Shown: positions 6,141 to 43,832 of the stretch, in pieces | How positions within the stretch are numbered: the stretch's first letter is position 1 | How the letters are laid out: the number at the start of each line of letters is the position of its first letter | Origin: Bacteroidota bacterium | GTDB lineage: Bacteria; Bacteroidota; Bacteroidia; Palsa-965 | Reading direction: 5' to 3' | NCBI GenBank assembly: GCA_020402865.1 | Contig: JADBYT010000028.1 | Span: 1 to 64,000, forward strand | Length of the DNA stretch: 64,000 bases | Program-made: the position numbers and the translations under genes | Notes under the pieces: model-generated | Databases searched by the model: none | Seen by the model: the letters and a program-made list of their open reading frames with translations, nothing else | What the model was told of the DNA's origin: nothing

Positions 6141-7685
6141 ATGAAAACAATTCGAATAACAAACAGAAATATTATGAGGTATTTAAAAGCTCTTTTAAAT
6201 ACTTTGTATTGTTTATTTTTCCTAATTGGATGTAATAATTCCGGTAATGAGGTTTCTATACCCGGTATGAAAAAAATGTGCAACAACTGTAAAGATGGAA
6301 TTGCACAATATGAAGATCTCTGTAACCCAATTTTGTCTGTGGAAGAACAGAGAAAAGACTTCTTTATAATCCGCAAAACGATAACAGAAATGCTGCCAGA
6401 TCTGCTCCTTCGATTTTCTACCAATCGAGTGAATCAGCTTATGGACAGTATGAATAGTACATTTTCATCGCCACTTTCTACACTTGATTTCTACCGGAAA
6501 ACGGCACCTTTTCTTGATCAGTTTGCGTGTTCACACACGAATTTTGAACTCAGTAGCACCTTAATTGATAGTCTGACCCGATGCGCAAATTTTATGCCTA
6601 TCCCACTTTACTTCACACATCAGAATATTTTCTATAACGACAACTTTCAAAGTAACTGTACGGGTGGTAAAATACTTACAATTAATGGAGAAAAAATAGA
6701 GCGCCGAATTGAGAAATTGGATAAGTATATTTATACCGACCTCCCTGTTTCTGCGCAAAGATATTGTTTGAGAAACAAGCTGGCCTATTTAAATTATATC
6801 GCTTACAGTGACGAAAAAAATATCAGTTTACAATTATTTTCAGATAGTATAAGGCAATCCGGAACTTATTTTCGAAGCTTCAATACAATTTCAGATGGGG
6901 GGCTCCATCAGCTAAACTATCAAAACGACTGTGTTATTGATGATTCTCTTGGAGTAGCTAAACTTACACTTACTTCATTCGAACCTTATAATTATGTAAG
7001 TAATAACTTTGACAATTTTCTGGAAAACTCAATGGAACTTATCTGTCTTAAGCAAATAAAAAAATTGATTATTGACTTAAGAGATAATGCAGGAGGATAT
7101 GACCATCATGAACTTAAACTACGATCTTTTTTCACTGCCGATAATGTTAATGTTGTAAAAAAAGAAAAAATACGTACTAAAAAAATTCCGCTATTCGAAA
7201 TAGCTATCAGAACATTTCAATCGAATAATACTAACCTAAGCGAACTTAATTTAAAAGTAAATAGACAATTTATCCCAGCAAAAGACTGGGGTTATGAATG
7301 CATTACTGATTCAATTTTCAAAATGGCACCTCAAAAAAATCAATTTGAAGGAGAAATACTACTTCTGGTAAATGAAGGAACCGGATCAGCTGCATTGAGA
7401 TTTGCATACTTCCTGCGCTCATTTACAAATTGTAAAATCGCCGGTCAATCACCTCCAAATCGTGCTACATTTTCCAATGGAGGCTATACTATTAAATATA
7501 AATTACCCCATAGCAAAATTATACTAAGCATACCTTATTACTATAGAGAGAACATCGGGAATACAGACTATACACTCCCGAACGGACAATTAAAAATTGA
7601 CTATCAAATCTATTTTAGCAGAGATAACTTTGTGAATAGAGTTAATCCTTACGACACTTTTGCAGATACCTACTTCAAAAAATAA
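6141..7685 (+). CDS. S41 family peptidase-like lipoprotein (AT-rich)
   Basis: About 514 aa from ATG 6141, with a second possible start at ATG 6174. The frame extends upstream to 6039 only inside the previous gene, so that start is rejected. A signal peptide ends in a lipobox FLIGC. The C-terminal half resembles C-terminal-processing/tail-specific proteases. IIDLRDNAGG near residue 320 is the typical strand before the active site, and LLVNEGTGSAAL near 415 carries the candidate serine nucleophile. The usual downstream Thr-x-Gly-Lys segment is replaced, so the catalytic lysine is not evident. The gene is clearly more AT-rich than its neighbours, suggesting recent acquisition. Confidence 0.75.
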   Translation: MKTIRITNRNIMRYLKALLNTLYCLFFLIGCNNSGNEVSIPGMKKMCNNCKDGIAQYEDLCNPILSVEEQRKDFFIIRKTITEMLPDLLLRFSTNRVNQLMDSMNSTFSSPLSTLDFYRKTAPFLDQFACSHTNFELSSTLIDSLTRCANFMPIPLYFTHQNIFYNDNFQSNCTGGKILTINGEKIERRIEKLDKYIYTDLPVSAQRYCLRNKLAYLNYIAYSDEKNISLQLFSDSIRQSGTYFRSFNTISDGGLHQLNYQNDCVIDDSLGVAKLTLTSFEPYNYVSNNFDNFLENSMELICLKQIKKLIIDLRDNAGGYDHHELKLRSFFTADNVNVVKKEKIRTKKIPLFEIAIRTFQSNNTNLSELNLKVNRQFIPAKDWGYECITDSIFKMAPQKNQFEGEILLLVNEGTGSAALRFAYFLRSFTNCKIAGQSPPNRATFSNGGYTIKYKLPHSKIILSIPYYYRENIGNTDYTLPNGQLKIDYQIYFSRDNFVNRVNPYDTFADTYFKK

Positions 7686-36855: not shown

Positions 36856-39741
36856 ATGAAACGTCTTTTTGCCTTGCTCTTGCTGACTGCAATTGTGTTG
36901 CCTTCTGCAGCTCAAAAAAACAATCAGCCCCCCGCCGCCCCCGAGCCCAAACCCACACCAGCCGCCGAACGCATGGCTGCGCTCGAAAAGCGGAAAGCAG
37001 CCGAACAACGCTCGCTGGTAAGCAACATTGCTTTTACCAACATAGGCCCCACCATTATGAGCGGCCGTGTGACTGATATAGATGCCGATCCGAACGACCC
37101 GACCCGCTTTTATGTGGCCTACGCCTCGGGCGGGGTGTTTTTTACCGGCAACAACGGCACCACGTTCTCGCCCGTGTTCGAGCAGGAAACCAGCATTACC
37201 ATTGGCGATATTGCCGTGAACTGGAACAACGCGGCCAGACCCGAAATCTGGGTAGGCACCGGCGAAGCCAACTCCAGCCGCTCGTCATACGCCGGCACAG
37301 GCGTGTATGTGAGCCCCGACGGCGGTAAAACCTGGCAAAACCGTGGTCTGCACGAAACACACCACATCGGCAAAGTGCTTTTGCATCCCTCTCAAAACGG
37401 CACGGCCTGGGTGGCGGCTATCGGCCATTTATACTCACCCTCGGCCGAGCGCGGGGTGTATAAAACCACCGACGGCGGTAAAACCTGGAGCAAAGCACTT
37501 TACATCGACGAAAACACCGGCGTAATTGATCTTACCGCCGATCCGCAAAACCCCGATGTACTTTACGCCACGGCGTGGCACCGGGAGCGCCGGGCATGGA
37601 ATTTTGTAGAAGCCGGAGCCGGCACCGCCATTTACAAAAGCACCGACGGCGGTAAAACATGGAACATCATCACCACCGCAGCTTCCGGTTTTCCGCAGGG
37701 CAACGACATCGGCCGCATCGGGTTGAGTATTTTCCACGGCAATACACAAATCATGTATGCCGTGGTGGATAACCAAACACTGAAGCCCGCTGCGCAGACC
37801 AGCAGTAAGCGCCTCTCGCCTGCCCGTTTCCGCACCATGAGCAACAGCGAGTTTCTGGCGCTCAACGATACTGAGCTCGAAACCTGGCTGCGCAGTAACG
37901 AATTTCCCGCACAGCACACCGCCGCCTCAATTAAAGCGCAGGTACAAAGCGGCACACTAAAACCCGTGGCCCTGGCCGACTTTGTGTCTGACGCCAATGC
38001 CGATCTTTTCAACCGCCCGATTACCGGCGCCCAGATTTACCGCAGCGACAATGGCGGACAAAGCTGGCAGCTCACCGGCAGCGACGAAAACCTGAAAGAT
38101 CTTTTCTATACCTACGGCTATTACTTCGGCAAAATCTGGATTTCGCCGTTTGACGCCAACGAAATATGGGTGGCCGGCGTGCAACTCCTGCACAGCACCG
38201 ATGGCGGGAAAACCTTTGCGCCCACCGACGGCGCCAACCAGCACGGCGACCATCACGCCTTATACATAAACCCCAAACGCCGCGGGCATTTAATCAACGG
38301 CAACGATGGCGGGGTAAATATTTCGTGGGACAATGGCCTGAGCTGGTTCAAAGCCAATACGCCCGCCGTGGGGCAGTTTTACGCCATAAATGTGGACATG
38401 GCTACGCCTTACAATGTATATGGCGGCCTGCAGGACAACGGTGTGTGGTACGGCCCTTCCAATTACGAAGCCAGTTTGAGCTGGTACGACTACGGGCAAT
38501 ATCCTTACCGGTTCATTTACGGAGGCGATGGCATGCAGGTAATGATAGACCCGCGCGACAATGTGACCGTGTACACCGGTTATCAGTTCGGGCATTATGG
38601 CCGGGTGAACCGCCTTACCGGCGAAACGGCAGAAGTGCGGCCCGAAAATGTGCTGGGCGAGCCGCCGCTGCGGTTCAACTGGCAGGCGCCCATCTGGCTT
38701 TCGGTGCATAACCCCGATATTTTATACATGGGTGCCCAGCGTTTGTTCCGCTCCATGAACAAAGGCGATGATTTCACCGCCATTTCCGGCGACCTCACAC
38801 GCGGAGGCCGCACCGGCGATGTACCTTACGGCACTTTAAGCACCATACACGAATCGCCGGTGCAGTTTGGCCTGCTCTACACCGGCAGCGATGACGGGCT
38901 GGTACACGTATCAAAAAACGGCGGCGAAACCTGGACACGCATTTCCGATGCCCTGCCGCAACACCTGCGCGTAAACCGCGTAATTGCCTCGGCACATGTA
39001 AAAAGCCGGGTATATGTGGTGCTGAGTGGTTTCCAGTGGGATCATTTTGCGCCCTACGTATTTGTGTCGGAAGATTTTGGGGCTACATGGAAGCAAATTG
39101 CCACCGATTTGCCGCACGAACCGGTTAATGTAATTCGCGAAGATCCGGTAAACCCCGATCTGATTTTCATCGGCACAGACAACGGACTTTACTGCTCACT
39201 CAACCGTGGCCTCACCACCATGCGCATGAACGGCGGCCTGCCTGCCGTGGCCGTTCACGACATTGTGATTCACCCCCGCGAGCACGAAATTCTGATAGGT
39301 ACACACGGGCGTTCTATTTACAAAGCATACATCGGAGACCTTCAACTTATTAATTCGGTGAAACTATCTAACTATAATACTATCAGCTATTTAAACCAAA
39401 CCACAAACAGAAACGAAAATCAAACCTCGTTCTCCGAAATGACCATTAGCTGGGTAGCTCCGAAAGCCGGAACAGTAACCATACAATTATGTCCGGAAAA
39501 CGACAACCTGATACTGCTGGAGGTAAAAGACACCTGTGAAGCCGGCCTGAACAGGAAAACCCTTTCTACCCGATTAGACACAGCGGAAGCAAACTCATTT
39601 CGGGAATGGTTAATACTGAAACAGGATCCGCGACGCATAAAATCAGGCCACGACGGAAAATCAAATTTGCCGGCCGGTCGCTACGAACTCATCTTCACCG
39701 ATGAAAAAGGCGTCCGTTTTACACAAAAGGTTGATTTATAG
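36856..39741 (+). CDS. Large secreted Asp-box/VPS10-like propeller protein
   Basis: 961 aa, signal peptide of about 19 residues, then a Pro/Ala-rich linker. Residues 55-830 contain many BNR/Asp-box repeats (SPDGGKTWQN, TTDGGKTWSK, STDGGKTWNI, RSDNGGQSWQL, SKNGGETWTR) that build sortilin/VPS10- or sialidase-type propellers. Proteins of this kind are annotated as glycosyl hydrolases, but no catalytic residues can be assigned here. There is no T9SS tail. The last 130 codons (from about 39350) are markedly more AT-rich than the rest and may have been added or replaced. Confidence 0.8.
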   Translation: MKRLFALLLLTAIVLPSAAQKNNQPPAAPEPKPTPAAERMAALEKRKAAEQRSLVSNIAFTNIGPTIMSGRVTDIDADPNDPTRFYVAYASGGVFFTGNNGTTFSPVFEQETSITIGDIAVNWNNAARPEIWVGTGEANSSRSSYAGTGVYVSPDGGKTWQNRGLHETHHIGKVLLHPSQNGTAWVAAIGHLYSPSAERGVYKTTDGGKTWSKALYIDENTGVIDLTADPQNPDVLYATAWHRERRAWNFVEAGAGTAIYKSTDGGKTWNIITTAASGFPQGNDIGRIGLSIFHGNTQIMYAVVDNQTLKPAAQTSSKRLSPARFRTMSNSEFLALNDTELETWLRSNEFPAQHTAASIKAQVQSGTLKPVALADFVSDANADLFNRPITGAQIYRSDNGGQSWQLTGSDENLKDLFYTYGYYFGKIWISPFDANEIWVAGVQLLHSTDGGKTFAPTDGANQHGDHHALYINPKRRGHLINGNDGGVNISWDNGLSWFKANTPAVGQFYAINVDMATPYNVYGGLQDNGVWYGPSNYEASLSWYDYGQYPYRFIYGGDGMQVMIDPRDNVTVYTGYQFGHYGRVNRLTGETAEVRPENVLGEPPLRFNWQAPIWLSVHNPDILYMGAQRLFRSMNKGDDFTAISGDLTRGGRTGDVPYGTLSTIHESPVQFGLLYTGSDDGLVHVSKNGGETWTRISDALPQHLRVNRVIASAHVKSRVYVVLSGFQWDHFAPYVFVSEDFGATWKQIATDLPHEPVNVIREDPVNPDLIFIGTDNGLYCSLNRGLTTMRMNGGLPAVAVHDIVIHPREHEILIGTHGRSIYKAYIGDLQLINSVKLSNYNTISYLNQTTNRNENQTSFSEMTISWVAPKAGTVTIQLCPENDNLILLEVKDTCEAGLNRKTLSTRLDTAEANSFREWLILKQDPRRIKSGHDGKSNLPAGRYELIFTDEKGVRFTQKVDL

Positions 39742-39836
39742 CTTACCGCATCAACGATCCGCCCATCACACCTTTCGATGAACTCACACTATTAACCGAC
39801 CTTTCATATTATTTTTTCGTTTTTTCGACCAAAAGG

Positions 39837-39868
39837 CTTGACAAAGCATATCCGCGGTTATAAATTTG
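39837..39868 (+). promoter_or_regulatory. Promoter of candidate small RNA (CTTG-N20-TAAATTTG)
   Basis: CTTG (39837-39840), 20 bases, then TAAATTTG (39861-39868). It fits the Bacteroidota promoter form found elsewhere in the window and lies in a region with no downstream open frame. Confidence 0.55.
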
Positions 39869-39872
39869 TCTC

Positions 39873-39945
39873 ATTCTTGCACCGCCCGGTGCAGGTACTA
39901 AGCAAAAAGCGATGCAGCTCGGGGTTACTGCATCGCTTTTGCTGT
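39873..39945 (+). ncRNA. Candidate small RNA, about 70 nt
   Basis: It starts just after a consensus promoter. The transcript would hold an 8-bp hairpin at 39876-39895 (CTTGCACC-GCCC-GGTGCAGG) and a second strong hairpin at 39901-39943 (stem GCGATGCAG/CTGCATCGC extended by A/T arms), followed by T5, a good intrinsic terminator. No open frame fits between promoter and terminator. It matches no RNA family I recognise. An alternative reading is a distant terminator of the 36856 gene, but that would not explain the promoter. Confidence 0.5.
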
Positions 39946-39948
39946 TTT

Positions 39949-40161
39949 TGTTCCCTTCGATAAACTCAGGGAACAAAAGCAAACTACGCTTTGCGGGGGC
40001 AACAAGCTCGGGGAATGAAAGCAAACTACGCTTTTAGCTTTTGACTTATACAAGCGCAGGGAACAAAAGCAAACTACGCTTTTCAGCTTTTGACTTATAC
40101 AAGCTCAGGGAACAAAAGCAAACTACGCTTTGCGGGGGCGACAAGCTCGGGGAATGAAAGC
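39949..40161. repeat. Imperfect tandem repeat cluster (AGGGAACAAAAGC-type)
   Basis: Four copies of a roughly 26-bp unit (CAGGGAACAAAAGCAAACTACGCTTT, given here in description only) begin at 39967, 40009, 40057 and 40116, and a fifth partial copy is at 40149. Two linker types alternate: GCGGGGGCAACAAGCTCG and AGCTTTTGACTTATACAAG. The left end also forms a hairpin with TTTGTTCCCT. The ACAAGCTCAGGGAA core resembles a repeat common in many bacterial genomes. From 40162 to 40366 nothing recognisable is seen. Confidence 0.85.
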
Positions 40162-40366
40162 TATGTTTTACTGTAAGCCTTTTTTAATATTTACCCGCTC
40201 ATTTCAAATGAAGGACAACACACTGGGTATTTCCTTAACTAACGTACGCAATTAGCCGCCAGGCAAAAGCCGCTTGAAAACCAAACGCTTAGGCAATATG
40301 AAAAGCCCGTTAAAAAAGGAACAGCCTTTTTCAGCGGTGGCTACTTTACCAAGCAGGCAAGTTGAG

Positions 40367-40374
40367 TATATTTG
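40367..40374 (+). promoter_or_regulatory. Candidate -7 element (TATATTTG) of the BatA-domain gene
   Basis: TATATTTG ends 6 bp before ATG 40381. TTTA lies 18 bases upstream as a weak -33. It argues against the TTG start at 40372. Confidence 0.4.
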
Positions 40375-40380
40375 CAACAC

Positions 40381-42501
40381 ATGAAATTTGTTAACCCGTA
40401 TTTCCTTTTTGCGTTTGCGGCTTTAGCTATTCCGATTATTATTCACCTTTTCAATTTTCGGAAATTCCGCCGGGTTTACTTTACCAATGTGCGCTTTCTG
40501 CGCGAAGTACAGCTCGAAACACAGTCGAAATCGAAACTGAAACACCTGCTGGTGCTGGCCTGCCGCTTACTCGCGCTTTCTTTTCTGGTGCTGGCTTTTG
40601 CCCAGCCTTTTCTGCCCAAAGAAAATGTGAACCTGCGTGCCGGTCAGAAATTGGTAAGTATCTGGATCGACAATTCCTTCAGCATGGATGCCGTAAACAA
40701 AAGCGGCACCCTGCTTGACGAAGCAAAGAAAAATGCCCGCGATATTGCGCTTGCCTATACGCCAGCCGACAGGTTCCAGCTCCTCACCAACGATTTTGAA
40801 GGCCGCCACCAGCGTCTTGTTTCGCGCGATGAGTTTTTGCAGCTGCTTGACGAAGTAAAGACTTCGCCGGCTGTGCGGCAGCTTTCGGAAGTAGTAACCC
40901 GCCAGCAGGATGTGCTCATGGGCGTTGCCGGCATTGCCAGCGGAAACCGGCAGGCTTTTCTCGTTTCCGATTTCCAGAAAAGCATAAGCGATGTACCACG
41001 CATAAATGCCGATACCTCGCTGCGCGTGCGCCTGCTGCCTGTGGTGGCGCAAAACCGCAACAACGTGTATGTGGATTCAGTATGGTTTGATACGCCGGTG
41101 CGCCGCGCCGGACAAACCGAACAACTTCATGTGCGCCTGCGCAGCCGCAGCACGCAAGACATGGAAAACGTGCCCATGCGCCTGTATATCAACGGCGAAG
41201 CACGCACACCCTCAAGTTTCAGCATTGCGGCCGGCAGCACAAAAGACACGGTAATAGCCTTTACCGTGCGCGAAACCGGCCTGCAGCAGGGGCTTATTGA
41301 AATAAACGACTACCCGGTTACATTCGACGACCGGTTCTGGTTTTCGTTTGATGTGGCTGCCCGCATGCCCGTGCTGGCTATACACAACACACCCGAAGGC
41401 AGCGAACTGCAGAGCGAAGGCGCCGCATTTCTCGGCACACTCTTCGGCAGCGACTCCTCGTTTATTTACACCGCCGCCAGCGAAAAACAGCTCGATTACG
41501 GTTCGCTGCAAGCACAACGTTTCATCATCCTCAACTCGCTCAACACCATTTCCACCGGTCTGGCGGTTGAGCTGAAACGCTTTGTGGACAATGGCGGCAG
41601 CCTGTTTGCCTTTCCGGGTACCGATGCCGAGGTAGAAAGCTGGAACCAGCTGCTCACCAGCCTCGGTGCAAACACGCTGGGCGGCAAAGACACCGTGCGC
41701 ACTGCGGTTGACCGCATCAATTACGCGCATCCGCTTTATCAGGGCGTATTTACCCGCACCGATCAGAACATTGATTTGCCCATGGTAAACGATCATTACC
41801 GCATTGGCAACGCCGTACGCACTACCCAGACCGAACTGCTGCGCCTGCGCACAGGCGAAGTGTTTTGCGCGGCTTCTTCCTCCGGTTCGGGCATGGTTTA
41901 TCTTTGCGCGGTGCCGCTGAGCAGCGCGTGGAGCAACTTTCCGCGCCATGCCGTGTTTGTGCCCACACTCTATCAGGCCGCGTTGTTCAGTCAGGCCCGG
42001 CGCCCGCTGTTCTACACCATTGGCAGCAATGCCGTAATTGATCTGGGCGATGTAAAAGTGAGCGGCGATCAGGTTTTTCACCTCACCGAGAAATCGCGCA
42101 ACTTCGATATTATTCCCTCGCACAGCGTGTTTCAGGGTCGCACACGACTTGATCTTCCGCCCCTGCGCGAATCGGGCAACTACCTTGTGATGCAGGGCAC
42201 CACACAACTTACCGGCGCAGCATTCAACTTCAACCGCCTCGAATCAGACATGCAGCCCGCCGGCGAAGAACTGCTGACCGAAAGCATTGCCGCAGCCGGC
42301 CTCACCCACTTCTCGCTGCTGAAAGACGAAGGCAAAGGACTTACGCAAACACTCACCGAACGCGACTACGGCATCCGTCTCTGGAAAACCTGTATCTGGC
42401 TCGCGCTGGCGTTTTTGCTGGCCGAAGTGCTGCTGCTGCGTTTCTGGAATACATCGCCCAAACCTGTTTCGCCCACCACGGCAGGCACACAGCCTGTTTG
42501 A
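40381..42501 (+). CDS. BatA-domain membrane protein with vWA-like domain
   Basis: 706 aa. The N-terminus FVNPYFLFAFAALAIPIIIHLFNFRK is the aerotolerance-type BatA membrane segment, with a second span near 58-75. A vWA-like domain begins at IWIDNSFSMD (about 93-102), giving a D-x-S-x-S-like MIDAS with one change (DNSFS). A long extracytoplasmic region and a last span near 680 follow. Function is uncertain; these proteins are tied to envelope stress in Bacteroidota. ATG 40381 is chosen over TTG 40372. The dihydroorotase-like gene follows after 11 bp, a neighbour pair common in this phylum. Confidence 0.82.
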   Translation: MKFVNPYFLFAFAALAIPIIIHLFNFRKFRRVYFTNVRFLREVQLETQSKSKLKHLLVLACRLLALSFLVLAFAQPFLPKENVNLRAGQKLVSIWIDNSFSMDAVNKSGTLLDEAKKNARDIALAYTPADRFQLLTNDFEGRHQRLVSRDEFLQLLDEVKTSPAVRQLSEVVTRQQDVLMGVAGIASGNRQAFLVSDFQKSISDVPRINADTSLRVRLLPVVAQNRNNVYVDSVWFDTPVRRAGQTEQLHVRLRSRSTQDMENVPMRLYINGEARTPSSFSIAAGSTKDTVIAFTVRETGLQQGLIEINDYPVTFDDRFWFSFDVAARMPVLAIHNTPEGSELQSEGAAFLGTLFGSDSSFIYTAASEKQLDYGSLQAQRFIILNSLNTISTGLAVELKRFVDNGGSLFAFPGTDAEVESWNQLLTSLGANTLGGKDTVRTAVDRINYAHPLYQGVFTRTDQNIDLPMVNDHYRIGNAVRTTQTELLRLRTGEVFCAASSSGSGMVYLCAVPLSSAWSNFPRHAVFVPTLYQAALFSQARRPLFYTIGSNAVIDLGDVKVSGDQVFHLTEKSRNFDIIPSHSVFQGRTRLDLPPLRESGNYLVMQGTTQLTGAAFNFNRLESDMQPAGEELLTESIAAAGLTHFSLLKDEGKGLTQTLTERDYGIRLWKTCIWLALAFLLAEVLLLRFWNTSPKPVSPTTAGTQPV

Positions 42502-43792: not shown

Positions 43793-43832
43793 CACAAGAG
43801 GCTGTTCCCGATGAAAGGAACAGCCTCTTGTG
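43793..43832. terminator. Hairpin between convergent genes
   Basis: A 16-bp perfect stem (CACAAGAGGCTGTTCC / GGAACAGCCTCTTGTG) with an 8-base loop lies between the dihydroorotase-like gene and yebC. There is no long T-run, so termination on either side is likely but not certain. Confidence 0.65.

Follow-up and report, generated by a model that had tools for sequence, protein, structure and literature searches.

A probable small RNA gene in an intergenic gap of a Bacteroidota genome, kept in a second genus

Does the gap between a sortilin/BNR-type gene and a BatA-domain gene in this Bacteroidota genome carry a gene of its own? In the window, by which we mean the whole 64,000-nucleotide stretch that was analysed, direct reading places this gap at 39742-40380; it is free of protein genes and measures 639 bp, in agreement with the value of 640 bp given in a preliminary description. 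The sortilin/BNR-type gene (36856-39741, PF15902) and the BatA-domain gene (starting at 40381, PF07584) flank it on the same strand. Judging from sequence comparison, we consider it highly probable that the gap holds a real and selectively kept gene that stands by itself and encodes a small non-coding RNA (sRNA).

The proposed gene lies on the plus strand. Its predicted promoter consists of a -33-like element, CTTG (39837-39840), a 20-nt spacer and a Bacteroidota -7 box, TAAATTTG (39861-39868), which follows the consensus TAnnTTTG (PMC9723704); this CTTG-N20-TAAATTTG arrangement at 39837-39868 is present just as it had been reported. The -7 box of Flavobacterium promoters, TAnnTTTG, is located at -12 to -5 (PMC9723704). 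From this placement we infer that transcription starts at A39873 in the window and, in G007, a genome from another genus of the same family, at A1514 of the locus L003. These predicted starts precede the first hairpin by one to three bases, and the predicted RNAs are about 77 nt long here (39873-39949, from promoter, terminator and conservation) and about 75 nt in G007. Hairpin 1 (39876-39895), recognized by reading, folding and alignment with G007, is formed by eight base pairs including one G-U, CTTGCACC-GCCC-GGTGCAGG, with GCCC as its loop. The terminator hairpin (39901-39943) comprises 16 base pairs and one bulged A between the arms AGCAAAAAGCGATGCAG (39901-39917) and CTGCATCGCTTTTGCT (39928-39943), and a single G separates its stem from the T5 tract (39945-39949), which is also found in G007 (L003 1584-1588). 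An 8-bp hairpin and a terminator hairpin with T5 had been described before, and both were recovered by direct reading and by folding. The earlier span is right in beginning at 39837, while the end of the RNA falls at about 39949, four bases past 39945, and the predicted length of about 77 nt exceeds the proposed 65-75 nt. As had also been noted, no open frame fits: the frame beginning with the ATG at 39912 continues across the terminator, this ATG is absent in G007, and we found no conserved ORF in the element.

We then asked how far fold and signals depart from chance. The RNA of the element folds with -35.2 kcal/mol (z about -4.9), and none of 200 shuffled sequences was equally stable. When both strands of the window were scanned for the pattern TTG-N19..21-TAnnTTTG, three matches were found compared with 3.6 in shuffled sequences, indicating that the promoter motif alone, although its -7 box matches the phylum consensus, occurs at chance frequency. 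In combination with a strong terminator, defined as a perfect 10-bp stem with a T-rich tail no more than 120 nt from the promoter match, the pattern occurred once in the window and never in 100 shuffles. The window contains five further terminator-like hairpins with a perfect 10-bp stem and a T-rich tail, at 6179, 7695, 52648 and 61384 on the plus strand and at 43828 on the minus strand, and no TTG-N19..21-TAnnTTTG match was found within 120 nt before any of these five.

The strongest evidence comes from comparison with G007, in which a DNA search of 59 genomes identified the one true homologue. Orthologues of the two genes flanking the gap also flank the G007 copy, and next in line in both genomes comes an amidohydrolase (dihydroorotase-like) gene. 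Since the neighbouring proteins of the window and G007 are only about 59% identical, unconstrained DNA between them would be expected to be saturated with changes; the flanks of the gap are indeed unalignable, and the element is 77% identical over about 88 nt. Three blocks are unchanged, namely ATAAATTTG in the -7 box, CTTGCACCGCCCGGTGCA and TCGGGGTTAC. G007 has an A/T-rich tract at the position of the -33 element, which is weak there and not clearly kept. In hairpin 1, 19 of 20 bases are identical, and the single difference keeps the RNA pair (U-G or U-A). The terminator stem carries three double compensatory changes (A-U to G-C) and, close to the loop, two pairs that are mismatched. Both genomes have a T tract after the stem on the plus strand; on the minus strand, G007 has none. 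No double compensatory change appeared in slid controls, and the same compensatory count was reached by 64 of 500 pair shuffles, a control that has low power with two sequences. The motif TCGGGGTTAC (39919-39928), which covers the loop of the terminator plus the first base that closes it, is the same in G007 although the neighbouring stem bases vary, and is a candidate contact (seed) region. In these two known sequences, the window and G007, the pattern reads as purifying selection on an RNA, and not as a promoter match by chance or an ordinary terminator. Conservation of both hairpins in relatives had been put forward as a test of the preliminary description, and both are kept in G007 along with the -7 box, within a narrow distribution. 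The layout of an independent sRNA, as first proposed, is supported by this syntenic homologue in another genus and by the three compensatory changes, and the element shows the features of the class: a predicted promoter of its own, an intrinsic terminator of its own whose stem is maintained, and no conserved coding frame.

Other explanations need to be considered against this comparison. The hairpin with T5 could simply terminate the upstream sortilin-type gene, the promoter-like box being a chance match or a weak start: it lies 160 nt past the stop codon of that gene on the same strand, no other clear terminator comes earlier, and the promoter motif is no more frequent than chance. Such a terminator would leave unexplained why the -7 box and the terminator loop are constant and hairpin 1 nearly constant across genera, and in G002, which belongs to the same genus and is less complete, about 165 bp separate the two genes and the element is missing; we regard this explanation as very unlikely. 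Equally improbable, in our judgement, is a cis-acting leader of the BatA-type gene, an attenuator or riboswitch-like RNA whose synthesis would begin at 39873 and then end at the terminator or continue into the gene. In both genomes the element precedes this gene on the same strand, but the gene starts about 430 nt (window) or about 200 nt (G007) beyond the terminator, and an alternative pairing that is possible in the window, GGTGCAG with CTGCATC, is, on inspection of the alignment, not kept in G007. In both genomes, moreover, the BatA-type gene is equipped with a -7 box of its own, TATATTTG, beside its start, and the element is therefore a unit separate from that gene.

Hairpin 1 might also serve chiefly as a DNA operator for a repressor, with the RNA being incidental, since it is an 18-bp palindrome that directly follows the -7 box, overlaps with the region of the start and has hardly changed. 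The sole change, however, alters the DNA palindrome yet keeps the RNA pair, an exact copy occurs once per genome and no regulon emerges, and the terminator loop would be left without explanation. Versions of hairpin 1 with up to three mismatches were at noise level across the family. We give the operator little credence as an account of the whole element, and consider it possible for hairpin 1 alone.

The sRNA gene appears to be restricted to few genomes. It is single-copy in its own genome, and a covariance model failed to detect it in five near-complete relatives, four of them from the same genus and one, G008, from a third genus. The model was extended to 197 relatives, to the order (12 genomes) and, at class level, to 395 genomes. 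Apart from the present genome and G007, the matches that were read, in G163, G134 and G242, were rejected for being devoid of hairpin 1 and the loop motif, two of them being bare terminators. The weak match in G163 (L036 1501-1572) is a gene-end terminator beside what appears by eye to be a tRNA gene (GGAGAGTTGGCAGAGTGG...GGTTCGAATCCC) and not a homologue. A two-block pattern scan of 84,980 species returned 15 matches, and promoter and terminator were found together only in G007. In the same-genus genomes that were read, the element was beside neither the BatA-type nor the sortilin-type gene, and these two genes are usually apart. No homologue was found in phage, plasmid and viral collections; we rejected a mobile element on the basis of the single copy and this absence from phages, plasmids and viral contigs. 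Either the gene is ancestral and was mostly lost, or it was gained once and passed on.

Directly 3' of the sRNA terminator, at 39955-40161, four imperfect tandem copies of a unit ending in CAGGGAACAAAAGCAAACTACGCTTT are spaced by 42-49 nt. The core of this unit was not found elsewhere in the genome with three mismatches allowed, nor in G006 or G007; since it is confined to this interval, the repeat is a local expansion and accounts for the greater length of the gap in the window. G006, from the same genus, carries upstream of its BatA-type gene (L005 ~1030-1480) roughly three copies of a ~150-bp repeat (GATTGATATTCGGAGATAATATTTC...GCGTTTGCAACGCG), another local expansion beside that gene.

How might the RNA work? 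Going by the conserved parts of the sequence, the product is most likely an sRNA about 77 nt long that acts in trans, is protected by a 5' hairpin and makes contact through a loop. A sigma-A-type RNA polymerase would start at about A39873, and the GC-rich 8-bp hairpin within 3 nt of the RNA start may shield the 5' end; a hairpin at the extreme 5' end is an expected RNA stabiliser. After a short A-rich linker the RNA would end in the intrinsic terminator hairpin, whose invariant loop motif UCGGGGUUAC may contact a target mRNA or protein in trans. Constant between varying stem bases, this loop is our first candidate for the active part. Provided that the gene is real, we give base-pairing to an mRNA about an even chance as its mode of action, trans action itself being presumed. 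Targets were sought as exact complements of the loop motif, in some runs limited to sites just before ATG. Such sites showed no excess over the reversed control in the present genome (G000); in G007 the counts were 33 against 5 in the control for TAACCCCG and 13 against 11 for GTAACCCC, which we read as composition. No orthologous target shared by G000 and G007 emerged from this exact-seed search, in which part of the hits were compared as loci. It is also conceivable, but rather doubtful, that the invariant loops GCCC and UCGGGGUUAC act together, either by loop-loop contact, intra- or intermolecular, or by forming a site for protein binding; as an isolated duplex, CCCG with CGGG has a calculated energy of -7.8 kcal/mol. 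If this were true, the terminator loop, not a 5' single-stranded seed, would be the active part of a class of Bacteroidota sRNAs.

The element matches no Rfam 15 family above the gathering score, and at E up to 1 the only match was 23S-methyl on the minus strand (25.9 bits, with a cut-off of 50). It is a lineage-specific intergenic sRNA of a familiar kind. To a Bacteroidota order that is sparsely sampled (12 genomes) and in which, to our knowledge, no sRNA has been studied, the analysis contributes an sRNA gene that is well supported and unnamed, and it directs attention to the terminator loop as the functional part; the general view of such RNAs is unchanged. Compared by described features, it resembles GibS of Bacteroides thetaiotaomicron, an intergenic Bacteroidota sRNA with its own start and an intrinsic terminator that is kept within a clade (PMC7366714) and comes from a branch of the phylum without obvious Hfq or ProQ (PMC7366714). 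GibS has a long unstructured 5' seed (PMC7366714), whereas the sRNA described here begins with a hairpin and carries its conserved unpaired motif in the terminator loop. On the same terms it is also like Rfp18, a structured, genus-wide intergenic sRNA of Flavobacterium psychrophilum, an organism with TAnnTTTG promoters (PMC9723704). Rfp18 belongs to a different clade and is a different gene, and its deletion alters predicted target mRNAs (PMC9723704); its predicted pairing through the third stem-loop (PMC9723704) resembles the loop-borne candidate region proposed here.
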